Shown: in pieces, positions 3,353-31,384 of the stretch | Numbering within the stretch: the stretch's first letter is position 1 | How the letters are laid out: every line of letters starts with the position of its first letter | NCBI GenBank assembly: GCA_031274925.1 | Contig: JAISPL010000015.1 | Location: forward strand, 1 to 54,672 | Source: Syntrophobacterales bacterium | Lineage (GTDB): Bacteria; Desulfobacterota; Syntrophorhabdia; Syntrophorhabdales; Syntrophorhabdaceae | Length of the DNA: 54,672 bases | Direction of reading: 5' to 3' | The notes under the pieces: model-generated | The model's input: the letters and a program-made list of their open reading frames with translations, nothing else | The model's database searches: none | What the model was told of the DNA's origin: nothing | Program-made: the position numbers and the translations under genes

Positions 3353-3388
3353 CAATAACCTCCTTAAAGTAAAAATTTTCGTGAAATA

Positions 3389-3416
3389 ATTCTAGTCCCA
3401 AAGTGACCAAATCCAA
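3389..3416 (-). promoter_or_regulatory. Candidate promoter of gcdB
   Basis: On the minus strand TTGGAT (3411-3416) and TAGAAT (3389-3394) are 16 bases apart and lie about 37 bases upstream of the gcdB start. The match to sigma70 consensus is reasonable but not perfect. Confidence 0.45.
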
Positions 3417-3873
3417 GGGCAGGAGGAGCCCGGACTCAATCACCGAACCAGAACTTTGAAATCAGCAAATCAGCATACTATTGTTGATATTAATGAAATA
3501 TTTCACTTATCTATTTTTGTTTTAACGATATATTATTCCGCACCCCATGTCAACTTTTTATTTTCGGAATCTTACTGCAATTTTCTCGCATACATTCCAT
3601 TTGGCGAAAGACCTGATGATTTACTCCGATTTCAGTCGGACGGGCATCCGAAAGGCGTATCACGGCGAGCTATCTAAAAAGGAATCGATAAGTCGAGAAA
3701 AAACAGGCTTAAGACATAGATACCGGCAATTCGATATGGCACCTCCCATTTGAATCATCCGTCCGTTCCGTGTTACAATTATTCATGCGTTACAGAACTG
3801 ATTCCACGATCTCTGCCAGTTCAACCGGGGAGGACGGACCACATTCCGTGACTATCCTGAAAGCAGCGACAGA
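3417..3873. other. Intergenic stretch, no gene recognised
   Basis: The interval between the divergent gcdB and the small membrane protein gene is AT-rich around 3475-3560. Short readings exist in both directions but none has a ribosome-binding site, a recognisable domain or protein-like composition. It probably holds the promoter of the plus-strand gene; no clear -35/-10 pair was found. Confidence 0.4.
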
Positions 3874-4212
3874 ATGAATCCATCTGTACGCCGTTCATTT
3901 GTGCGGGATTTGATCATCTTCTGGCTCGTGGTATTTCTCGTGGTCCTGACTTGGCGCCACAATATGGCAGTCATGGCGATCCTGGTAGCGGCCTACCTGA
4001 CCAGATTCTATTTTTGGCCAGATAAAGAGGATCATATCTTCTATCTGGCAGGAGCGATTGTAGGACCGGCCGCAGAGATTGTCGCCACCCATGCGGGCAT
4101 ATGGAGCTACACCCTGCCTTCCTTTCTTAATATACCTGTGTGGCTTCCCTTTGCATGGGGTTTTGCAACGGTCATTATAATAAGGATCGGGCAGGCTTTC
4201 GTAAAAACATGA
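3874..4212 (+). CDS. Small integral membrane protein, unknown function
   Basis: This encodes a 112-residue protein that is hydrophobic over most of its length, with about three to four helices (roughly residues 10-28, 30-46, 55-72 and 84-106). A conserved-looking segment reads GPAAEIVATHAGIW, then PVWLPFAWGF, with a membrane-embedded Glu and His, a pattern I associate with small bacterial membrane proteins of unknown function. It begins MNPSVRRSF, so the N-terminus is probably cytoplasmic by the positive-inside rule. It stands alone and converges with dusB. No function is proposed. Confidence 0.6.
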   Translation: MNPSVRRSFVRDLIIFWLVVFLVVLTWRHNMAVMAILVAAYLTRFYFWPDKEDHIFYLAGAIVGPAAEIVATHAGIWSYTLPSFLNIPVWLPFAWGFATVIIIRIGQAFVKT

Positions 4213-4297
4213 CAACATGATAAAGGTGTGCTGTTCGGATCAACAAGAGCAAAGAGCCAAATGGTTTCCACGAAAGAAAGGATAGCCCTTTCTAGGA

Positions 4298-5993: not shown

Positions 5994-7430
5994 TCAATCT
6001 TTGATGCCAGCCAGTCGCTTTGCTGCCCGTTTCTTGCTCTCCAAGTCGGTCTCGCGGAGAATTGTTACCCTGTGGGCTTCCGGTGAACCTCCACCATGGA
6101 TATCGGATATGGTATCCGCACTTTCCATCGCCATCTTCTCGACCAGCCTGTACATTTTAACCCTATTCTCCGTCGGTACATTGCCCACACCCTTGAGATA
6201 CTTTCTCAACAAATCACCGATCTCTGGGTTGTCAAAATCTCTGTCCGACGGCAGATCGGCGACGAACCCTCCGGCAGCGTCTACCATAAGCCTTATGGCT
6301 TCCGACATCTCCTTGCCTTCATGAATCTTAGAGGCATTCGCGAGCACTGTATCGATAAAGTATGTCCCTGAAGGCTGCTTCTTTCCCTCATATGAGGAAG
6401 CAAGGCAACAGCCGTAGAGAGTCTCTGCCCTATGGACCATGTCGACAACTTTTTGTTTCAGGTGCCCCGCTTTCGCGGTTCCGTTATAATCCATCAAAGT
6501 AAGGGCTGCACCGACCATGCAATCAATCTTTCCGGATTTGCATCCGCCGTGACTCTGGCGATGGAGGGAGGAAAATTTCACCACCATATCCTGAGCAAAT
6601 TCCGTCTCACCGCACATAAACACTCTCTCCCAAGGTACGAATACATCATTAAAAATAATGGTCGGGCAGTATTTTGAATAGTATACATTACCGATATCGC
6701 ATCCGTCTAACTCGCGCATATCCAGAGTTGACCTCCCCACCACATGGATCAATCCTTTAGTGTCGGAAGGTACAGCAAATGACACGGCATAGTCCGTGTC
6801 GGCTTTACCCATTGCTCTAGTGGGAAGGACAATAATCTCATGGGACGAGAGGGACCCAGTCTGATGGGCTTTTGCTCCTCGGACTACAATGCCGTCGTCG
6901 CGCTTCTCAACAATGCGGAGAAACATATCTTTGTCAGGCTGTTCATGGGGATTAAGGGAACGGTCGCCTTTTACGTCCGTTACGCCTGCATTGCCCGTGA
7001 GGTCGTTCTTCTGCATATATTTAAGAAATTCGGTAAAATTCTTGTGATAACTGGTACCGTATTTCTTGTCGATATCATAGGTCACAATGGAGAGGCTCGA
7101 CAGACAGTCCAGACCCGTACACCGCTGGTGGCAGGTCCCCACAAAATTGGCCATTTTACGATTGACCTTAACTCTTGCAACAAGGTCTTCAATGCTTGAA
7201 GGGGGCAAATTGAACCTGCTTACCGGCTCGTTAATAAGGGGGCTTACAGTTACGAAAAGGTCACGGTTTTCTTCTTTGCCAGCCATTTCATACGTAGCTG
7301 CCGTCGCCTCAATGCCGGCGCGGAGCCTGGGGTTGTCCACTATGTTTGTCAGGCGTTCGCCGAACATATATGCCGTCGGTTTCAGAGCTCTTATTGATTC
7401 GATATACTCCTCTTTTGTTTTAAGACCCAT
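5994..7430 (-). CDS. abfD: 4-hydroxybutyryl-CoA dehydratase / vinylacetyl-CoA delta-isomerase
   Basis: This enzyme converts 4-hydroxybutyryl-CoA to crotonyl-CoA by a ketyl-radical mechanism using FAD and an unusual [4Fe-4S] cluster, and also isomerises vinylacetyl-CoA. The 478-residue protein is of the usual length (C. aminobutyricum about 490). The cluster ligands are all visible: Cys100 and Cys104 in TCHQRC, His290 and Cys297 in HRQSHGGC, matching Cys99, Cys103, His292 and Cys299 of the Clostridium enzyme. The acyl-CoA dehydrogenase-like fold and the C-terminal IHGGGSPEAHR segment are typical. The start ATG at 7430 follows AGGAGGTAC. The gene follows a GntR regulator by 37 bases and is divergent from sucCD-like genes. 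The family also includes 4-hydroxyphenylacetate 3-monooxygenase-type flavoproteins, but these lack the four ligands. Expected to be cytoplasmic and oxygen-sensitive. Confidence 0.95.
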   Translation of the reverse strand: MGLKTKEEYIESIRALKPTAYMFGERLTNIVDNPRLRAGIEATAATYEMAGKEENRDLFVTVSPLINEPVSRFNLPPSSIEDLVARVKVNRKMANFVGTCHQRCTGLDCLSSLSIVTYDIDKKYGTSYHKNFTEFLKYMQKNDLTGNAGVTDVKGDRSLNPHEQPDKDMFLRIVEKRDDGIVVRGAKAHQTGSLSSHEIIVLPTRAMGKADTDYAVSFAVPSDTKGLIHVVGRSTLDMRELDGCDIGNVYYSKYCPTIIFNDVFVPWERVFMCGETEFAQDMVVKFSSLHRQSHGGCKSGKIDCMVGAALTLMDYNGTAKAGHLKQKVVDMVHRAETLYGCCLASSYEGKKQPSGTYFIDTVLANASKIHEGKEMSEAIRLMVDAAGGFVADLPSDRDFDNPEIGDLLRKYLKGVGNVPTENRVKMYRLVEKMAMESADTISDIHGGGSPEAHRVTILRETDLESKKRAAKRLAGIKD

Positions 7431-8563: not shown

Positions 8564-9703
8564 ATGAGACTTCATGAATACGAGGCGTTAGATATTTTTG
8601 AGCAATTCGGTATTCCCGTTCCACGGCGGGGCCTGGCAGGAACAATGCACGAGGCTCTTCACATGGCGGGAGAGATAGGATATCCGGTCATGCTGAAAGC
8701 CCAAGCGCTGGTCGGCGGGCGAGGCCTTGCCGGAGGTATTAAGACGGCAGCCTCCCCGGACGAGCTGAAAGACGCAGCCGATGCACTCCTTAATTCCGAT
8801 ATTAAAGGGTTACCTGTCCGTAAGATTCTTGTTTGCGAGAAAGCTGAAATTGCCAAAGAGCTTTATGTGGGTATCACAATAGACGGCTATTCCGGCAAAC
8901 CAATTATCGTAGTAAGCACCGAAGGCGGGGTACGTATCGAAGAGACAGCCATGATGTCCCCTGAAAAGATTGCGGCAATTCATATCGACCCTTCTTTCGG
9001 GTATTATCCTTATCAGGCACGATCTCTGCTCCGGATGCTCGGACTCAAGCAACAGCTCATAACCGCCTGGACCAACGTAATCGGTCAATTATATGAAGTA
9101 GCCTTGCGTTATGAGTCTCTTATCACGGAGATAAATCCCCTCGTAGTCCTTCCCAACGGAGGGTTACTGGCTGTCGATGCCGTTCTGGAAGTAGATGATT
9201 CTGCGCTCTCCAGGGTCCGACGACCCCTACCCGACCGTATCGACAGGATTGAAAACCCTCTAGAGAAGAGAGGCAGAGAGATCGGGGTCACATATGTCGA
9301 TCTCGATGGAGATATCGGGATTATCTCATCAGGAGCCGGACTCGGGATGGCATCCATGGACATCATCAGGGAAAAGATGAAACCCGCCAACTTCCTGGAA
9401 ACAGGAGGTGGGATCACGGCAGATCTGCTTTATCGGTGTATGGAGCTAATCATGAGAAAGCCAAGGCTCCGCGGTATACTGATCAACGTTTACGGCGGCA
9501 TCAATCCAATACATGAAGGCGCCAAGGGAGTCGTCCGCTACATTCAGGAACATAATGTGAAGCTGCCTATAGTCGCCAAGGCTTTGGGGAACAGACAGGA
9601 GGAGACATGGGAGATTTTTCGATCCGCCGGTGTACACGTGGTGACCGAGACGGCCACAGAGAGGGCTGTAGATAAATTATACGAGTTGGTAGGAGCAGGT
9701 TGA
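8564..9703 (+). CDS. sucC: Succinate-CoA ligase (ADP-forming) beta subunit-like
   Basis: The ATP-grasp subunit couples CoA-thioester hydrolysis to ADP or GDP phosphorylation together with the alpha subunit encoded next. It has 379 residues (E. coli SucC 388). It starts with HEYEALDIFEQFGIPVP; the nucleotide loop GGRGLAGG is at residues 51-58, and EINPL (189-193) provides Mg ligands. The CoA-ligase domain has GAGLGMASMD (257-266), NFLETGGG (276-283, commonly FLDVGGG) and INVYGGI (307-313). AAGGA lies 10 bases before the ATG. Being divergent from abfD, it may act on succinyl-CoA or on another short acyl-CoA such as malyl-CoA; the sequence does not decide this. ATP formation from an acyl-CoA would suit a fermentative or syntrophic anaerobe. 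Confidence 0.88.
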   Translation: MRLHEYEALDIFEQFGIPVPRRGLAGTMHEALHMAGEIGYPVMLKAQALVGGRGLAGGIKTAASPDELKDAADALLNSDIKGLPVRKILVCEKAEIAKELYVGITIDGYSGKPIIVVSTEGGVRIEETAMMSPEKIAAIHIDPSFGYYPYQARSLLRMLGLKQQLITAWTNVIGQLYEVALRYESLITEINPLVVLPNGGLLAVDAVLEVDDSALSRVRRPLPDRIDRIENPLEKRGREIGVTYVDLDGDIGIISSGAGLGMASMDIIREKMKPANFLETGGGITADLLYRCMELIMRKPRLRGILINVYGGINPIHEGAKGVVRYIQEHNVKLPIVAKALGNRQEETWEIFRSAGVHVVTETATERAVDKLYELVGAG

Positions 9704-9774
9704 AAGCATATCAAATGCCATTAAAATCTGTTTTTATATTGAAAGTACTAACAAAAATTAACTGAGGTCTATTC

Positions 9775-10647
9775 ATGGGCATATTGATTGACGATTCCAC
9801 CCGTGTCATCGTACAGGGGATCACTGGCCGCATCGGGAGTACACAGACTCACTGGATGCTCGAATGTGGAACGAAGGTTGTGGGCGGCGTTACCCCGGGC
9901 AAGGGGGGGTCTACGGTGGAAGGGGTACCTGTCTTTGATAGCGTTCAGGAGGCTGTGAAAGAAACAGGAGCCAACGCATCCGTTTTTTTTGTCCCAGCGG
10001 CATTCGTCCTTGATGCCTTCCTTGAAACCATCGACGCAGGAATAAAGCTTATCGTGATAGTTCCAGAACACATCCCCGTGAAGGATGTAATCAGGATGCG
10101 CGACTACGCCGCACAAAAAGGAGTCTTCGCGCTCGGTCCGACTACACCCGGTATCCTTGTCCCAGGAAAGGGTAAAATGGGCATTATGCCCACCTCTCTC
10201 TTTGCTCCGGGCCGCGTAGGCATCATCTCCCGGAGCGGCACGCTCTCCTATGAATTTGCCGGCATCCTCTCGGAGTGCAATGTAGGCCAGAGCACCGTTA
10301 TCGGTATGGGCGCCGACCCCGTTGTGCTGAGAAATCTCGCCGACATCCTTGAGCTCTTCGAGGAGGATGAGAACACCGACGCCGTGATCATTGTCGGAGA
10401 GGTAGGAGGTGAACAGGAAGAAAAGGCGGCCGGCTTTATATCCAGAAAAATGACAAAACCAGTTGCAGCATACATCGCCGGACGATATTCACCTCAGGGG
10501 AAACGCATGGGCCATGCAGGCGCCATCGTCAGAGGTTCTTCCGGCACAGTAGAAGGGAAACACGATGCCATGCGTGCCGCAGGGGCTGAGGTTCTTGAAA
10601 GTCCTATCCAGGCCACCGACTGGGCCAGGAAGCATAAACTCAGGTAG
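9775..10647 (+). CDS. sucD: Succinate-CoA ligase (ADP-forming) alpha subunit-like
   Basis: This subunit binds CoA and carries the phospho-His. It has 290 residues (E. coli SucD 289). A Rossmann start VIVQGITGRIGSTQ (residues 11-24), VGGVTPGKGG (36-45) and SRSGTLSYE (152-160) are typical. The active-site His is His247 in MGHAGAIV. The loop that reads GPNCPG in most SucD proteins is GPTTPG here (121-126), so the Cys beside bound CoA is Thr. GAGG precedes the ATG at a loose spacing and the gap from sucC is 71 bases, so the two are one operon. The altered loop suggests a different acyl-CoA or a paralogue outside the TCA cycle; this is inference. Confidence 0.88.
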   Translation: MGILIDDSTRVIVQGITGRIGSTQTHWMLECGTKVVGGVTPGKGGSTVEGVPVFDSVQEAVKETGANASVFFVPAAFVLDAFLETIDAGIKLIVIVPEHIPVKDVIRMRDYAAQKGVFALGPTTPGILVPGKGKMGIMPTSLFAPGRVGIISRSGTLSYEFAGILSECNVGQSTVIGMGADPVVLRNLADILELFEEDENTDAVIIVGEVGGEQEEKAAGFISRKMTKPVAAYIAGRYSPQGKRMGHAGAIVRGSSGTVEGKHDAMRAAGAEVLESPIQATDWARKHKLR

Positions 10648-14835: not shown

Positions 14836-15878
14836 TCCCCTGTCCCCCCTCCACTCCCGACCATCTATTCCCCAATATCACCCTTGCATCAAAGGGAGAG
14901 GGATCTTTTCTCTCCCGTTTCTCTATTACGGCAATACGCCTCTTCTCTGTGGGAAGCGGGATCTCTTCGCTTCAGGGCAAATTGCAATCCTGCTGAACCT
15001 ACATTTCATCTCGCATTTCATCCAGAGGATATGGTCGTGTTTCTGAAGAATCTCCTATTCAAAGGAAGTTGGAAAGAGATTCCTGTAATCGCTGCAATCC
15101 AAACAGGGTTTCGTGTAAGTTTTCTAAAGATGGAAAATCCGCTGCACGAGCCTCAGAAAAGTTCCGAGAATGCAAATACTCCAACATCAGTATCTCTTTT
15201 TATGTCTTTTAAAAAAAGAAAACGAAAGAGATATGAATCAAGAAGATAAAATGTCTCTTTTGGATGGAAGGATAGTCTTTGAGAATGATGTAGGCAAACT
15301 TAATGTAATCCTTTTTTCTCTGCAAGTGAATATTCCCATACACCCACTTCATGATATACCGGAAGATCGGATATAGAAAGAAAGTGGGTACGCAGACGAG
15401 CATGGGCAATGGGGTCAAAGATGCCCAACAAGGCTTACATTGAAGATAGCTGCAAAAAGTAAGGGCAGAAAAAGATAGTGTTTTTAATAAGAACAATAGG
15501 GTTTCTTTTTTTATCTTATCCGTCAAAAAATCTATTTGGATTGTTCTCAGCGGATCAATCCACCAGCAAACTTCCCTATAATTGCGGAAAAACAATCATT
15601 AAAGAATGCCCTGAATGAGAAGAACGGTCACCTCTTTTCGGCAATAAGGAAACTCGCAACCACGAGTGGATCAATCTTGAAGAAACTGTTAATCGCTAAA
15701 ACATCTCATCTTTCCTCCGACTCGGGGTCATGAACGGTCGTCGCAACTGTTACATTTTCGGGCGTGAGACTGAAGAAACCTGCGGTGCACGATCGGCTAT
15801 AACGATATCGGATAACTCGCAAGACTGATTATGAACAATTCCGGCAAGTCCTTGTCGAAAATTCCGACAATTATTTGA
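14836..15878. other. 1-kb stretch without a recognisable gene
   Basis: Several readings of 60-130 codons exist on both strands, but none has a convincing ribosome-binding site or domain. The most protein-like are a plus-strand reading around 14950-15165 (phrases such as EDMVVFLKNLLFKGSW) and a minus-strand hydrophobic reading at 15209-15595 (around FFLYPIFRYIMKWVYG). Parts may be remnants of decayed genes, as seen elsewhere in the window. The region is AT-rich at 15170-15320. I cannot assign a function. Confidence 0.4.
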
Positions 15879-17243: not shown

Positions 17244-17253
17244 GAGGATAACG

Positions 17254-17556
17254 TCAGACTTTTCCCGAGAAGGATACCAATCCCTTGGCAAGCCTTTTCA
17301 GAGAATCGGTCATATCAATATAGAGATAAGATGCTTTGGACATAAAGACACCGACAATCAGCCTGTCCTGACGTATAACGGTATATTCGCCCGCCATTCT
17401 CAGGATATCCTCCTGGTCCTGACGAACCACCGTCTTCATATGGAGATTTCCGTTGAGAATATAATCTTTTATGTCTGTCCATTGCACCTCAATAAATGCA
17501 AACAGCTCATTAAGTTCTTTTAACGCTTTATTGCCAAAAATGGTCTCGGTCCGCAT
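17254..17556 (-). CDS. Conserved-looking small protein, unknown function
   Basis: A 100-residue soluble protein from the ATG at 17556 (a TTG lies one codon upstream), preceded by AAGGA at loose spacing. It begins MRTETIFGNKALKELNELF and continues with mixed helix and strand character, ending SFSGKV; there are no Cys residues, signal peptide or TM segment. Its stop lies 10 bases before the cca start, so the two are probably co-transcribed. A role linked to RNA processing would only be guilt by association. I do not recognise the family. Confidence 0.55.
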   Translation of the reverse strand: MRTETIFGNKALKELNELFAFIEVQWTDIKDYILNGNLHMKTVVRQDQEDILRMAGEYTVIRQDRLIVGVFMSKASYLYIDMTDSLKRLAKGLVSFSGKV

Positions 17557-17638
17557 CAATTTAAGATTTGTCCTTATTCGCCGGAACGTCCGGTCTGGTG
17601 TAGGATCGCAAACCTCCCGAAAGTGGGCTTAGGGACCA

Positions 17639-17920
17639 CTACCCTTTTATGGTCTTCTGGAGGATTTCGCCCAACTCTCCAATATTTGTTGGCTCAAACG
17701 TCATCACATAAGCACAGTACCCTATCTTTACTTTTCAGACTCCGCTCCTCGGGCTACTTCATCGTCCGGAACTGTTCCCTAGGGGCGGTGAGACCCCTGA
17801 CCATATCTGTCTCTGGACTTGTATTCATCCTTCATGGATTTGGCAAGTACCGCCGGTTACGATTCCATCTCGTCGCTGATGCCGAAAATTATAATTCCCT
17901 TTTATTATCTTGTAAATAGT
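17639..17920 (-). pseudogene. Possible decayed gene, unidentified
   Basis: The minus strand carries protein-like segments in two frames. One, near 17820-17900, reads FGISDEMES, a stop, then PAVLAKSMKDEYKSRDRYG. The other, ending at the TAG at 17639-17641, reads GYCAYVMTFEPTNIGELGEI and LQKTIKG. No start codon with a ribosome-binding site is present. This may be the end of a gene broken by stops and frameshifts. The family is not recognised, and chance cannot be excluded. Confidence 0.25.
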
Positions 17921-18071
17921 TTGTAAGCAGCTTTTTCCTCGTACAGAACCTTCAAATGGCTCGCTTAAGAGGAGGCTTAAGATGGCCGCATTTCTTCCTG
18001 TGGGTAAAATTTGCAATATGGGCGATCCCTTACAGACCTATGGCAAATAATCTCAATTCCTGCTAAAATAT
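17921..18071. other. Short leader region before mnmG
   Basis: This interval should hold the mnmG operon promoter. No clear -35/-10 pair was found by eye and no small gene is supported. Confidence 0.3.
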
Positions 18072-25025: not shown

Positions 25026-26795
25026 CTAAAAACTTTTTTTCACCTTTTCAAGATGGTCTTCCAGTTCCTTGGGTATCCTGTCGCCAAACCGGCTATAAAA
25101 CTCGACGATCCCCTCCACCTCTTTTTTCCAGTCATCACTTTTGATTTCAAAAAGCTTCTCAAGTGTATCGCGAGAAAGATCAAGGCCCGACAGATTGAGG
25201 TCAGCATGGTAAGGCAGAAGGCCTACAGGGGTCTCCATCGCCGGAACCGTGCCTTTTACCCTATCCATCATCCATTTAATGATGCGAAAATTATCACGGA
25301 AGCCGGGCCAAATGAACTTGCCCTGAACGTCCTTCTTGAACCAGTTGACGAAGAATATCTTGGGAGGGCTCGTAAGTTTGCTCCCAACGCTCATCCAATG
25401 TTTGAAATAGTCGGCCATGTTATAGCCACAGAATGGCAGCATCGCCATGGGATCACGCCTCACCACACCAACTGCGCCCGCTGCGGCGGTCGTGGTCTCG
25501 GAACCGAGAGAAGAGGCCTTGAAGACCCCGTGATTCCAGTCAAAGCTTTCGCACACAAGAGGGATAGTATCGGACCTTCTCCCTCCGAAAAGGATGGCCG
25601 AGATGGGAACACCATTCGGATTGTCAAATTCGGGGGAAAGCGTAGGACAATTACGCGCTGCCACGGTAAACCTGGAGTTGGGGTGGGCAACGACTTTGCC
25701 GGATTCCGGCCTCCATGAATTTCCCTGCCAGTCAAGGAGATGTGCAGGAGCTATGTCGGAGAGACTTTCCCACCATGGAGAATTTGTATCCGTGTCCAAC
25801 CCTGTGTTTGTGAAAAGAGTGGGGAAAACTTTGCCCGCCTTCAGGGTTTTCATCATCTGAGGATTCGTTTTATCTGAGGTACCAGGCGCAACTCCAAAAA
25901 AACCTGCTTCGGGATTGATGGCGTATAACCTCCCATCCGGCCCGACGTTGATCCAAGCAATGTCGTCGCCGAGCGTCGTTACATTGTAACCCTCAAGGAT
26001 CGGGTCAATCATTGCAAGATTCGTCTTGCCGCATGCCGAAGGAAAGGAGCCAAGAACATACATGATCTCCCCGGTCTTTTTATCTTCCACGCCCATGATA
26101 ATCATATGCTCTGCGAGCCATCCTTCTTGGCGGCCTTGATATGATGCGATCCTCAATGAAAAACATTTCTTACCGAGCAGGGCATTCCCGCCGTAGCCGG
26201 AGCCTACACTCATCACGAGATCTTCCTGAGGGAAATGCATGATGTAGCGTCTTTCGGGATTGAGGTCGGCGATGGAGTGGAGACCCTTCACGAATTTGTC
26301 GGAGCCTCCGATCCGTTCCAGAGTAGCCTCACCCACACGGGTCATGATGTACATGCTGACCACTACATATATAGAATCGGTGATTTGTATACACGGTTTG
26401 GCGTAGGGAGAGTTAGGATGGCCCATCATGTAGGGGATCACGTAAAGGGTACGGCCTTTCATGCATCCATCAAAGATTCGAGAAACGGTCTCTTTCGCCT
26501 CCCTGGGTTCCATCCAGTTGTTATTAGGACCCGCATCTTCCCTGTCAGGCGTGCATACGAAGGTGAGCTGTTCCGTCCTGGCCACATCGTTAGGATGGCT
26601 TCTGTGGAAGTAAGAGTTAGCAAAAACTTCATGGTTCAATTCCCTGAACGTCCGGTTCGACCCCGTCATCTCCTTCTCAATCCCGATCCTGATAAGGTCG
26701 CGCATTTCCTGTTCCGTTCCATGAACCCAGTATATTTTGTCCGGTTTGGTAAGCTTCGCCTGTTCTTCGACCCATTGTTCGACAAACGTAGACAT
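25026..26795 (-). CDS. pckG: Phosphoenolpyruvate carboxykinase (GTP)
   Basis: It interconverts oxaloacetate + GTP with phosphoenolpyruvate + CO2 + GDP, for gluconeogenesis or, in anaerobes, anaplerosis. It has 589 residues, usual for the GTP type. Visible are the P-loop FPSACGKTN (residues 251-259) with the hyper-reactive Cys255, GDDIAWI (277-283) for metal and nucleotide, the substrate segment PEAGFFGVAPGTS (295-307), and the mobile-lid and C-terminal regions. AAGGAGG precedes the ATG. The gene stands alone, converging on carB. It would supply PEP from C4 acids formed via succinyl-CoA; the link to the neighbouring metabolism is inference. Confidence 0.97.
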   Translation of the reverse strand: MSTFVEQWVEEQAKLTKPDKIYWVHGTEQEMRDLIRIGIEKEMTGSNRTFRELNHEVFANSYFHRSHPNDVARTEQLTFVCTPDREDAGPNNNWMEPREAKETVSRIFDGCMKGRTLYVIPYMMGHPNSPYAKPCIQITDSIYVVVSMYIMTRVGEATLERIGGSDKFVKGLHSIADLNPERRYIMHFPQEDLVMSVGSGYGGNALLGKKCFSLRIASYQGRQEGWLAEHMIIMGVEDKKTGEIMYVLGSFPSACGKTNLAMIDPILEGYNVTTLGDDIAWINVGPDGRLYAINPEAGFFGVAPGTSDKTNPQMMKTLKAGKVFPTLFTNTGLDTDTNSPWWESLSDIAPAHLLDWQGNSWRPESGKVVAHPNSRFTVAARNCPTLSPEFDNPNGVPISAILFGGRRSDTIPLVCESFDWNHGVFKASSLGSETTTAAAGAVGVVRRDPMAMLPFCGYNMADYFKHWMSVGSKLTSPPKIFFVNWFKKDVQGKFIWPGFRDNFRIIKWMMDRVKGTVPAMETPVGLLPYHADLNLSGLDLSRDTLEKLFEIKSDDWKKEVEGIVEFYSRFGDRIPKELEDHLEKVKKSF

Positions 26796-26984: not shown

Positions 26985-27809
26985 TTACCGCAGACCCGGC
27001 ATGGCTTGATAAAATCCGTTTATATGAACCACTTCTACTGGAATGTCAAAAAGATCAGTCAAGTTCTCACTCGTCATAACATGGGCCTTGCCTCCGTCAG
27101 CTGCAACTTTTCCGTCTTTAAGAAGGACAACTCTTTCAATTCCAGGTGGTATCTCGTGCACATGGTGGGTGACGAGAACTACGGTTTTCCCTGATGCAAT
27201 AAGGTCTCCGATGATGGTCAGGTATTGAAAACAGGCCCTTATGTCAAGTCCACTCGTAGGTTCATCCAAAACGAGTGCTTCAGGCCCGTTGATCAGCGCC
27301 CGACCTAGAAGAAGTCTCCGCTGCTCCCCCGTTGACATCTCTCGAAACTGTTTCTTCTCGCAATTCGATACCCCAAGAATTTCCAGCATACGTCCGGCAC
27401 GCTCCAAGTCCCGCACGGTAAATTTCTGATGGGTCCATATTCCGATGCTGGAGTATAATCCGGAGAGAAGAACGTCAATCCCCCGCACATCCCCCAAATA
27501 CTCCGCCTGAAGGTCTTGAGACACTACACCCAAATGGTTTCTGATGTCCCACACATTCCAGAGGCCATGACCAAACACTCTGACATAACCCTCCCCTTCT
27601 TGCAAAGGATATATCTCTCTAGTCAGAAGTTTTAGGAGTGTGGACTTTCCGGCGCCGTTCGGTCCCAGTATAGCGGTATTTTGCCCCGCGGTTATCTTCA
27701 GGGAGAGTCTCTCGAATACCATAGTCTCCCCCCGATAGACGGTGGCATTCTTAATCTCCACTATATTGCGTACATGGGACAATTTCAGGATGTCTCCGTT
27801 TACACGCAT
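26985..27809 (-). CDS. Orphan ABC ATPase of the ModF/PhrA (COG1119) type
   Basis: A 274-residue single nucleotide-binding domain. Walker A GPNGAGKST is at residues 49-57, Q-loop Gln98 (VVSQDL), signature MSTGEQRR (158-165, a weakened LSGGQ), Walker B VLDEPTSGLD (180-189) and the switch His in VTHHVHE (213-219). The phrases VWDIRNHLG, VLLSGLYSSIG and GEQRRLLLGRAL are the pattern of COG1119 proteins, annotated as molybdate-related ModF. No permease or binding-protein gene is adjacent, so it is either a regulator-like ATPase or works with a permease elsewhere. It lies 18 bases after the first KAS III gene in the same direction, so they may share a transcript. Confidence 0.85.
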   Translation of the reverse strand: MRVNGDILKLSHVRNIVEIKNATVYRGETMVFERLSLKITAGQNTAILGPNGAGKSTLLKLLTREIYPLQEGEGYVRVFGHGLWNVWDIRNHLGVVSQDLQAEYLGDVRGIDVLLSGLYSSIGIWTHQKFTVRDLERAGRMLEILGVSNCEKKQFREMSTGEQRRLLLGRALINGPEALVLDEPTSGLDIRACFQYLTIIGDLIASGKTVVLVTHHVHEIPPGIERVVLLKDGKVAADGGKAHVMTSENLTDLFDIPVEVVHINGFYQAMPGLR

Positions 27810-27827: not shown

Positions 27828-28772
27828 TTATCTCTTTAAAAGCATTGCACCGCTTGAATATCCACCACCAAAAACGGTCACGACGATCAGTTCATCACTC
27901 CGAAATCTTTCCCAGTTCTGGGAAATCGCAATGGCAGTACTTGCGCAGCCTGTGTTGCCAGTATTCTCGATATTCATAATCAATTGCTCGTCCCGGAGTC
28001 CCAAGGTCGCCCCAACATGGTTGATAATCCTCAAATTGGCCTGGTGCGGTATTAGGTGTATAATATCGTCAAGACTAAAGCCGTTACGCGCCAAAATCCT
28101 TTCCACTTCGGAAACCATGTATCTGGTCGCGTAAACAAAAATGTCTCGTCCGCAGGGCATCCTCAATCCGCTCTCATTAGGCCTAAGATACACGGCATCC
28201 AGACTTTTCCCGATATCACCGAGACCAGTAGTATTCACATCAAGAATCTCTATCTCATCGCCTGTAATCTTTTCTTTCGAGATGAAGACAGCGCCTGCCC
28301 CATCACCCCATAGGTGACCTGACTGCTCATCTTGATCATCATTGTATGCGCTGTTGTGCTCTGAAGCAATGACGACCGCCCTGCGAGCCTTGTTTGCCGC
28401 GAAATAACCTTCCACTATTTCTATGCCGTTCAGAAACGACGAACACGCAGATGAAATGGAGACAACTCTTGCACCGCCGATTCCAAAATAGCTTTGTACG
28501 GCGTGCGCAAGGGTTCCGACGGTGTCATAAGGGGTGTAAGTCGCCCCCACAACGAGATCAATATCTTTCAATGGATAGGGAAGCCTCCCAATGGCTGATT
28601 TCACCGCTTCAATCGACATAGTGTTGGTATTCTCTTCCGGCTGGACTTTAGTCCTCTTCCTGATCCCCGACCGTTTAAAGATCCAATCGTCGGTAAGCCC
28701 GAGTAACTGCGTATAATATTCGTTGGGGACGAATGTTCCGGGCAGATAATGAGAAGCGGCATTGATATACAT
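27828..28772 (-). CDS. Ketoacyl-ACP synthase III-like protein (paralogue 1)
   Basis: A 314-residue thiolase-fold condensing enzyme. The FabH-type triad is intact: Cys110 (SSACSSF), His243 (IPHQANLRI) and Asn273 (NTGNTG). HLWGDGAGAVF (153-163) and the closing FGGGYSSGAM are typical. It begins MYINAASHYLPG, a little shorter at the N-terminus than canonical FabH, and its substrate-pocket segment (ATYTPYDTVG) differs from that of the second copy at 30398-31384. FabH uses an acyl-CoA and malonyl-ACP to start fatty-acid synthesis; divergent copies use other acyl groups or make small molecules. It precedes the ABC ATPase gene. Exact substrate is unknown. Confidence 0.9.
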   Translation of the reverse strand: MYINAASHYLPGTFVPNEYYTQLLGLTDDWIFKRSGIRKRTKVQPEENTNTMSIEAVKSAIGRLPYPLKDIDLVVGATYTPYDTVGTLAHAVQSYFGIGGARVVSISSACSSFLNGIEIVEGYFAANKARRAVVIASEHNSAYNDDQDEQSGHLWGDGAGAVFISKEKITGDEIEILDVNTTGLGDIGKSLDAVYLRPNESGLRMPCGRDIFVYATRYMVSEVERILARNGFSLDDIIHLIPHQANLRIINHVGATLGLRDEQLIMNIENTGNTGCASTAIAISQNWERFRSDELIVVTVFGGGYSSGAMLLKR

Positions 28773-29035
28773 GGCTGTTATATAAACAAACCCCCTTCAT
28801 TTTTTAATAATAACAATCGGGTGCACAGTCCAAAATCTCTCTTTCCAATGATTGCGGAACAGCATTCAAATAAGCCAAGAGAACCGCTACAGGAAGTGAT
28901 CCGGGCGAACTCATTCGCTCTCTTCACGATAAACCATTCATATGAGAGGTAACTATATCAACAATGCAAGTCCGTGTCAACTGTGGAAGCGCAAAGCCCG
29001 CGGTGGTTAACGGTCAGGACTGACCGAAACACACC

Positions 29036-30024
29036 TCAACAGGCAAGATGTCGGTCGTCAAAGGACTCGAATCGTGGCGCCTCCTTATCTTCATCCTGGA
29101 GGATTACGAGGTCTATACCTAGTCCGTGATCTCCGAGATGTTTCATCATGAGTTTTGAGATATTTGCGAGAGTCTGGGCAAAAGATTAAATGTCGTAGAA
29201 TCTTCCCTTTGAATCCCAGCAGAATATCGATTTAAGCTCTTCAATCATCTGTGCTGCCTCTTCCTCGCGGAGGGGACATGTGAAGGACAGAGTCAGCGTA
29301 CATTTCTGGAAATATTCCGCCTATTCCACATAAAACACATGGGCCGAATCCTGGGTTAACCACGCTCCGCTATAATCACTTTCCATACCAGGCAAACTAT
29401 CCTCTGAAAAAGATACGAATCGGCCTTCATGATTCCAAATCCCCTTTCCACGAAAAGTCCCGTCACCTATATCAAACATCACCCTTCCCTGCTTCCGCAA
29501 ATAAGACTGCATATCTTCCAAATGGGCGACAGCGACCTCTCTTTCGGCGATGAGAAAAAGAAGGCTTTCAAGGCCTCACTCATCCTTCTTAAGATTCAAA
29601 GCCCTGTGAACACCGGTCTAACTTGCCGCTATCTATCTAGCGGTCTCCCGAAAGCACGGAAGTGTGAAATCTGGCAACTTCCCGATTCCCAAGACTTCCG
29701 TTGGCTTCAAATAGAACAATGGGTTTAGTCGGTATATTAGACAGATACATTAACCTCCTTTGGCATTGATGGTGTCCACGCAATCCGGCCTTATGATTTT
29801 TATGCCCAACCGTAAGGACACACCAAGAATTTTCTGTCCAGCTTTTCGATCCTCCCCTAACCCCGAAAACCAGCCCGCCTCAATAGTAGCCCCCAGGATT
29901 CCTTTTTTCCTCATGATTTCAAGAATGTCCGACAATCCTGACGCTGGAATAAGAATGGCCGCTAGATCAGGAGAGAAGGTACATCGCTGACCGTAATGCT
30001 TTCAGAAAAATATATGGCTTCCAT
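29036..30024 (-). pseudogene. Decayed ADP-forming acyl-CoA synthetase (CoA-binding / CoA-ligase protein)
   Basis: The minus strand holds pieces of one protein in three frames. From an ATG at 30024: SESITVSDVPS. Then, in the frame ending at 29750: SPDLAAILIPASGLSDILE, a segment with IEAGWFSGLGE, and RPDCVDTIN, matching the CoA-binding domain pattern P-D-L-A-V-I-x-V-P ... G-P-N-C-V-G-V-I-N. Then, near 29640-29725 in a third frame: KPIVLFEANGS and ARFHTSVLSG, matching K-P-V-V-x-K-x-G-R-S ... S-H-T-x-S-L-A-G. Finally, in the frame from about 29320 to 29036: PLREEEAAQMIEELKS, GRFYDI, a TAA, then SFAQTLANISKLMM, like the C-terminal end of the ATP-grasp half. Stops at 29576, 29321 and 29186 and at least two frameshifts break it, and about half of the roughly 2.1 kb expected is gone. 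It is non-functional. Confidence 0.6.
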
Positions 30025-30225
30025 AAAGAAACCTTAAGGGTTCTTTATATCGCGGTACATTTTTTTACATCTCTTTATTGTAATTTGAGGGTCAAAAAAT
30101 CGTCAGTATATACAAATACAAAGAGAATACTGCATGCGCAACTTTTGCCTGGTGTCACGCTTTAGGTCGTCATAAGCTTCAAAATAGGGTAAAACGAAAA
30201 AATGGACGTCACGCTTAATAATGGA

Positions 30226-30259
30226 GAAAGCCTGCAACCTCTTGCGGTTGCAGGCTTTC
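30226..30259 (-). terminator. Terminator after tRNA-Ser
   Basis: A 14-bp perfect stem (GAAAGCCTGCAACC and complement) with a six-base loop begins one base beyond the encoded CCA of tRNA-Ser. The downstream T-content is modest. Confidence 0.7.
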
Positions 30260-30260
30260 G

Positions 30261-30350
30261 TGGCGGAGGGAGTAGGATTCGAACCCACGGGGCGCTTGCA
30301 CGCCCAACGGTTTTCAAGACCGCCGCTTTCGGCCGCTCAGCCATCCCTCC
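30261..30350 (-). tRNA. tRNA-Ser (anticodon UGA)
   Basis: Read on the minus strand, this is a class II tRNA of 90 bases. The acceptor stem is GGAGGGA with TCCCTCC, discriminator G, and CCA is encoded. The anticodon arm GGTCTTGAAAACC carries TGA in a seven-base loop, the long variable arm (GTTGGGCGTGCAAGCGCCC) is typical of tRNA-Ser, and the T loop is GGGTTCGAATCC. It decodes UCA and, by wobble, other UCN codons. It lies 47 bases after fabH and may be co-transcribed with it or have its own promoter; a terminator follows at once. Confidence 0.97.
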
Positions 30351-30397
30351 GGTGAAGACCGTAATGAATACTACTCAGTTTGCAACTCCCGATTTTA

Positions 30398-31384
30398 CTA
30401 CCATCTTATGAGGCTGCTGCCCCATGTGAGGCCACCTCCAAACGCAGTCAGCAAAACCAATTTGTCCTTGGTTATTGTACCGTCTCTTACCGCTTCGTCA
30501 AGAGCAATCGGCACGGTAGCCGATGATATATTTCCATATTTCTCAATGCTCATGTAAACTTTATCCATAGACACTTTCAACTTTTTGGCCATACCTTGAA
30601 TTATCCTTAAATTGGCTTGATGGGGGATGATGACATCCACATCATCAATCGTGTGCCCGTTAAACTCGACTGCTTCCTCGCATGCCTCGGCAAACCTGGT
30701 AACCGCCACCTTGAAGGATTTGCTGCCTTCGATCAGTTTCAGGAAGTGAAGCCCTTTGTCGACGCTCTCGTGCGATATAGGGGTCGTCTTAGAGCCACCA
30801 CCAGGCATCAGCAGGGTATCTCCGTTTGCCCCGTCCGTATGGACATGGGTCGAAAGCACTTGCGCCCCGCCATCCGTCTCGGTAATGACCGCTGCTCCTG
30901 CACCGTCTCCCCAAAGGATACAACTCTCCCTCTCCTTCCAGTTCACCACTCTCGTCATTATTTCTCCTGCCACGACAAGGGCAGTCTTGTTTGATCCCGA
31001 CTTTATCATCCTGTCCGCCACGTGTAGTGCAAATATGAAACCAGAACATGCCGCAGTCACATCAAAAGAGATGGCTCTGGTACACCCTAATTTCGCTTCC
31101 AGCCAGTTTGATCCGGAGGGACAGTGAGTGTCCGGGGTTATTGTTCCAAGCACAATGAGGTCAATATCATCTGCCTTGATGCCCGCCATCTCTATAGCCC
31201 GCAAGCCCGCCTCCTTACATAGGTCTGAGGTAGCAACCTCAGGGTCCGCGATTCTTCGGGCTTTTATACCTGTTCTTGTATAAATCCATTCATCAGAAGT
31301 ATCCAGAAATTTTTCAATATCAAAATTGCTCAGAACCTTCTCAGGAAGATACGAGCCTGTTCCTACAATTCCAACCCTTTTCAT
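30398..31384 (-). CDS. fabH: 3-oxoacyl-ACP synthase III
   Basis: It condenses an acyl-CoA (usually acetyl-CoA) with malonyl-ACP to start fatty-acid synthesis. It has 328 residues from the ATG at 31384, which has AAGGAG at ideal spacing; a longer in-frame start at 31477 is not supported. The sequence is canonical: GTGSYLPEKVLSN (8-20), EWIYTRTGI (32-40), the triad Cys113 (AACSGF), His255 (IPHQANLRI), Asn285 (YGNISSAT), and the closing AFGGGLTWGSSL. It is the more canonical of the two copies in the window. It does not sit with plsX, fabD or fabG here. tRNA-Ser follows on the same strand. Confidence 0.95.
   Translation of the reverse strand: MKRVGIVGTGSYLPEKVLSNFDIEKFLDTSDEWIYTRTGIKARRIADPEVATSDLCKEAGLRAIEMAGIKADDIDLIVLGTITPDTHCPSGSNWLEAKLGCTRAISFDVTAACSGFIFALHVADRMIKSGSNKTALVVAGEIMTRVVNWKERESCILWGDGAGAAVITETDGGAQVLSTHVHTDGANGDTLLMPGGGSKTTPISHESVDKGLHFLKLIEGSKSFKVAVTRFAEACEEAVEFNGHTIDDVDVIIPHQANLRIIQGMAKKLKVSMDKVYMSIEKYGNISSATVPIALDEAVRDGTITKDKLVLLTAFGGGLTWGSSLIRW

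Follow-up and report, generated by a model that had tools for sequence, protein, structure and literature searches.

The stretch of DNA analyzed here (the window) is 54,672 nucleotides long, and it contains on its minus strand the pseudogene of a single-chain ADP-forming acyl-CoA synthetase, which lies between a tRNA gene and an intact KAS III-like gene. Enzymes of the ADP-forming (NDP-forming) acyl-CoA synthetase family catalyze the reaction acyl-CoA + ADP + Pi → acid + CoA + ATP. The features of the locus, with the evidence for each, are as follows.

25026 to 26795, minus strand: PEP carboxykinase (GTP), conserved block (homology, synteny)
26985 to 27809, minus strand: ABC transporter ATPase, conserved block (homology, synteny)
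27828 to 28772, minus strand: KAS III-like gene, intact, downstream of the wreck (homology)
28952 to 28980, minus strand: promoter-like TTGACA-17-TATAGT, downstream of the wreck and upstream of the KAS III-like gene (both hexamers recur at the equivalent position in the congener G001)
29070 to 30024, minus strand: pseudogene of a single-chain ADP-forming acyl-CoA synthetase (similarity, synteny and tree; frameshifts, internal deletions and stops)
29090 to 29451, minus strand: C-terminal portion of ATP-grasp_5, spread over more than one frame (Pfam, translated matches, frameshift-tolerant alignment)
29643 to 29759, minus strand: terminal piece of the CoA-ligase domain (Succ_CoA_lig), corresponding to guide residues 221-259 and including the HT motif (translated matches and a weak Pfam match)
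29754 to 29974, minus strand: piece of the CoA-binding domain, guide residues about 64-140 (translated matches)
30025 to 30260, no strand: stretch with a break in gene order, from the wreck to the tRNA-Ser (locus comparison)
30261 to 30350, minus strand: tRNA-Ser (TGA), which adjoins FabH in 9 of 9 relatives examined

The first-pass annotation had described positions 29036-30024 as the wreck of an ADP-forming acyl-CoA synthetase, and similarity, domain order, synteny and a phylogenetic tree all bore this out, with an extent that proved right to within about 35 bases (matched, 29070-30024). Its estimate that about half of the gene was missing also held, since the wreck measures about 955 bp and the genes of intact relatives about 2,046 bp, leaving about 47% of the length. 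A tblastn search with the genome's own intact paralogue as the query recovered three collinear minus-strand pieces in two frames, one from the CoA-binding domain (E = 4e-14), one from the end of the CoA-ligase domain (E = 2e-9) and one from the ATP-grasp domain (E = 2e-4). The CoA-binding, CoA-ligase and ATP-grasp_5 domains of the ancestral enzyme were thus all represented in their proper order, as had been read from the sequence before. In the translated search against the family, which had been proposed as a check, the region was matched by all 35 homologues used (34 distinct ones, as L004 repeats part of L001). A frameshift-tolerant protein-to-DNA alignment guided by the gene of the congener G001 scored 417, compared with a mean of 142 and a maximum of 164 for 20 dinucleotide shuffles and with 144 for the opposite strand, and G002:C36, which performed best among four guides, raised the score to 487. 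The ATG at 30024 marks the start of the wreck and aligns with the starts of intact proteins (MEAIYF or MEAIFF), and the last matched residues lie near 29070. Pfam matches to the loose pieces were weak (ATP-grasp_5, E = 2e-4; Succ_CoA_lig, E = 0.23), the CoA-binding piece had none, and the ATP-grasp_5 search of the whole genome saw only 29271-29357 within the wreck (E = 0.004). The case therefore rests on the order of the pieces, on close homologues and on synteny. The literature, in the parts available to us, held nothing on this locus.

An intact homologue, which the first-pass annotation had suggested looking for, was found both in the congener G001 (contig C103) and in the same genome (contig C41, 681 aa), and we compared the wreck with each. 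On G001:C103, a synthetase with an intact 686-aa reading frame precedes a KAS III-like gene, an ABC ATPase, PEPCK and CarB (the last on the other strand), and the window showed the identical arrangement, strand for strand, except that the wreck stands where G001 has the synthetase (identities of 69% for the KAS III-like gene, 71% for the ABC ATPase, 81% for PEPCK and 89% for CarB). Among 13 KAS III-like loci of relatives, two of them from G006, a synthetase neighbor in this order occurred only in G001, and the locus of G005 had PEPCK in common with the window; the shared gene order rests on one congener. The tree placed the wreck in a seven-row set with G001:C103, G002:C36, G020:C65, G012, G019 and G010 (support, 100), and FastTree with the far rows kept recovered the same clade (support, 0.906; nearest node, 0.632). 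The wreck formed a long branch (2.39) and is gappy, covering 29% of the columns, and its exact sister is therefore unsure. A pseudogene is expected to have an intact, syntenic orthologue in a relative, and G001:C103 together with the tree supplies one. As the C41 protein matches the wreck at an E value of 4e-14, we considered that the latter could be a dead fragment of a C41 duplicate, or one acquired laterally, rather than the local orthologue. However, bit sums against the wreck were higher for the clade genes (184 for G002:C36 and 151 for G001:C103) than for C41 (132), a forced clade of the wreck with C41 and its G002 relative was rejected (p-AU = 0.008, on a 28-row tree from which 7 of the 35 alignment rows, the far ones, had been omitted), and the place of the wreck is common to G001. 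Such an origin is therefore very unlikely.

The paralogue on C41 is a full-length synthetase, 63% identical to one in G002, and with it this class of enzyme persists in the genome. Its retention also counts against the first-pass proposal that the synthetase disappeared because a SucCD-type ligase took over ATP formation. SucCD-type genes do occur in the same window (8564-10647, by Pfam and NCBIfam). Nevertheless, every one of the 26 family genomes has a SucD homologue at E ≤ 1e-25 (identity of 90% in G001 and 88% in G002), and orthologues of 85-93% identity were found in 17 of the 25 other family genomes, including those with many intact synthetases. Both congeners, G001 and G002, carry a SucD homologue together with intact synthetases, and SucCD is thus not confined to genomes in which the synthetase has been lost. 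These data left the proposed replacement highly improbable. Near SucCD, at 5994-7430, lies an HpaB-family-related protein that falls below the NCBIfam cut-offs and presumably resembles 4-hydroxybutyryl-CoA dehydratase.

The genome is 2.06 Mb in size, versus 3.3 and 4.3 Mb in two congeners. At E ≤ 1e-5, ATP-grasp_5 matches, among which SucC and further ATP-grasp proteins are counted, numbered 2 here (C41 and SucC), 11 in G001 and 6 in G002, and ranged from 2 to 11 across the 26 genomes. The count rose with genome size (Spearman, 0.68; n = 26), but G021 has 6 matches in 1.9 Mb, so that genome size alone is insufficient to account for the low count here. One ADP-forming synthetase is left in this genome, and most relatives have several. 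Acetate kinase (PF00871) was found in none of the 26 family genomes, and 9 of 14 control genomes were positive; ADP-forming synthetases, in contrast, are numerous in the family. Near the intact synthetase on C41, we observed a weak CoA_binding_2 match with one internal stop (L006:8332-8604, corresponding to G000:C41:52331-52603; E = 1e-5). This is perhaps another decayed gene, and the site had no match at E ≤ 1e-3 from five homologues among the matches listed.

The wreck bears several marks of decay. Large gaps fall within the first domain, between it and the second, and across the middle of the protein. No frame approaches the roughly 680 codons of a complete gene, the longest minus-strand frame in the stretch being 66 codons. 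The first-pass annotation had counted three frames and three in-frame stops; a third frame was indeed seen when other homologues added a further piece, but the frame changes number more than three, and the matched blocks hold one or two stops depending on the guide, so that frame changes outnumber stops and three stops are not clearly present. At the 38 columns that the wreck covers and that show at least 95% conservation among intact homologues, it retained 23 of the conserved residues, compared with 36 of 41 in the worst intact homologue (Fisher p = 0.009), in a comparison for which the wreck pieces had been chosen because they match. In its conserved residues, the wreck falls short of a working enzyme. 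Against G002:C36, it differed at codon positions 1, 2 and 3 by 0.315, 0.279 and 0.655, versus 0.224, 0.103 and 0.636 for the intact gene of G001. This excess at positions 1 and 2 is consistent with relaxed selection, and the higher value at the third position would mean either that much divergence gathered under selection or that the decay is fairly young. A DNA-level search found the wreck in none of 39 relatives, and the decay is therefore not datable from a near relative. Three other long stretches of the window (3353-4297, 14836-15878 and 17244-18071) have no 130-codon frame under a simple mask and may hold further wrecks.

A few pieces of the wreck keep motifs and its 66-codon minus-strand frame is open, which raises the question of whether what is left could still function as a small protein or a regulatory RNA. 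The frame falls partly in the middle region, most of which is deleted, and has no Pfam match, Rfam showed only the tRNA above the gathering score, and the DNA is common to no relative (0 of 39), all of which makes a working remnant quite improbable. Errors of sequencing or assembly are an extremely unlikely cause of the broken gene, even in a draft genome of 57 contigs, as half of the length is gone by several deletions and conserved residues are replaced throughout, while the flanking genes are intact.

The upstream side of the wreck adjoins the tRNA-Ser, and the intervening 30025-30260 showed no similarity to the compared loci of relatives. In G001, FabH and tRNA-Ser lie on a different contig from the synthetase. 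The gene next after the tRNA-Ser varies among relatives, and no gene at this position was common to the relatives and the window. A phage-type integrase comes first in G002, G018 and G006 (L099, L102 and L105; 3 of 3 proteins tested), and the corresponding gene of G012 is similar to those integrases. In the window, the wreck directly follows the tRNA-Ser, and the gene order therefore breaks inside 30025-30260. A search of the window for a duplicated tRNA-Ser 3′ end, which would point to an integrated element, found only the tRNA itself. From these comparisons, the tRNA-Ser (TGA) beside FabH is likely an integration hotspot, and it is plausible that a rearrangement there detached the synthetase from its old promoter.

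On the other side of the wreck, an exact TTGACA with a TATA-like hexamer was the best promoter-like match 171-241 bases upstream of the KAS III-like gene at 8 of 14 loci, including the window. When the 400 bases from the window were shuffled by mononucleotide, 4 of 500 shuffles reached the same score, and an alignment of the KAS III leader from eight loci revealed that the hexamers are kept and the leader hardly so. With a promoter-like site of its own, the KAS III-like gene could outlive the synthetase. In the Rfam search of 28600-30400, the tRNA alone reached the gathering score; two weaker matches overlapped the tRNA and were taken as chance.

Taken together, we conclude with a probability of about 0.93 that the stretch represents a dead orthologue undergoing decay in situ, a case of paralogue loss in a small genome. 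On this reading, the lineage inherited several synthetase paralogues, and the local one lost function and gathered frameshifts and stops, with about half of its length deleted internally while its neighbors stayed intact. Selection may have relaxed because the remaining paralogue sufficed or the substrate fell out of use, the old promoter may have been removed when the DNA beside the tRNA-Ser was rearranged, and the KAS III-like gene would outlast its dead neighbor through its own promoter-like site. This explanation is an ordinary one, and no exchange of ATP-forming routes was seen. A broader account, in which an integrase-targeted rearrangement at the tRNA-Ser cut off the promoter and the cell, in a family found without acetate kinase, relies on C41 plus SucCD for ATP from acyl-CoA, is possible but rather doubtful. 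Paralogue loss in the small genome, for which the locus offers a clean case, carries a caution, as this wreck is not evidence of a switch in energy metabolism. With one ADP-forming synthetase kept and acetate kinase in 0 of 26 family genomes, C41 is the gene to study for energy conservation from acyl-CoA in this organism.

Among known systems, the closest comparison is with acetate-CoA ligase (ADP-forming), or NDP-forming acyl-CoA synthetase (PF13380, PF13607 and PF13549), all three domains of which G001:C103 and C41 carry above the cut-offs and in the same order. The wreck keeps pieces of each domain in the family order; unlike the intact enzymes, it lacks an open frame spanning them, and the greater part of its CoA-ligase and ATP-grasp domains is gone. 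The intact relatives, G001:C103 and C41, fell under all NCBIfam equivalog cut-offs, scoring 400 and 428 against 1200 for acetate-CoA ligase and 395 and 382 against 1300 for 4-hydroxybutyrate-CoA ligase, and no substrate was therefore assigned to the lost enzyme. No unusual feature of the wreck was found to set it apart from the pseudogenes left by paralogue loss in small genomes, with which it shares frameshifts, stops, deletions, a syntenic orthologue in a congener and a surviving paralogue.
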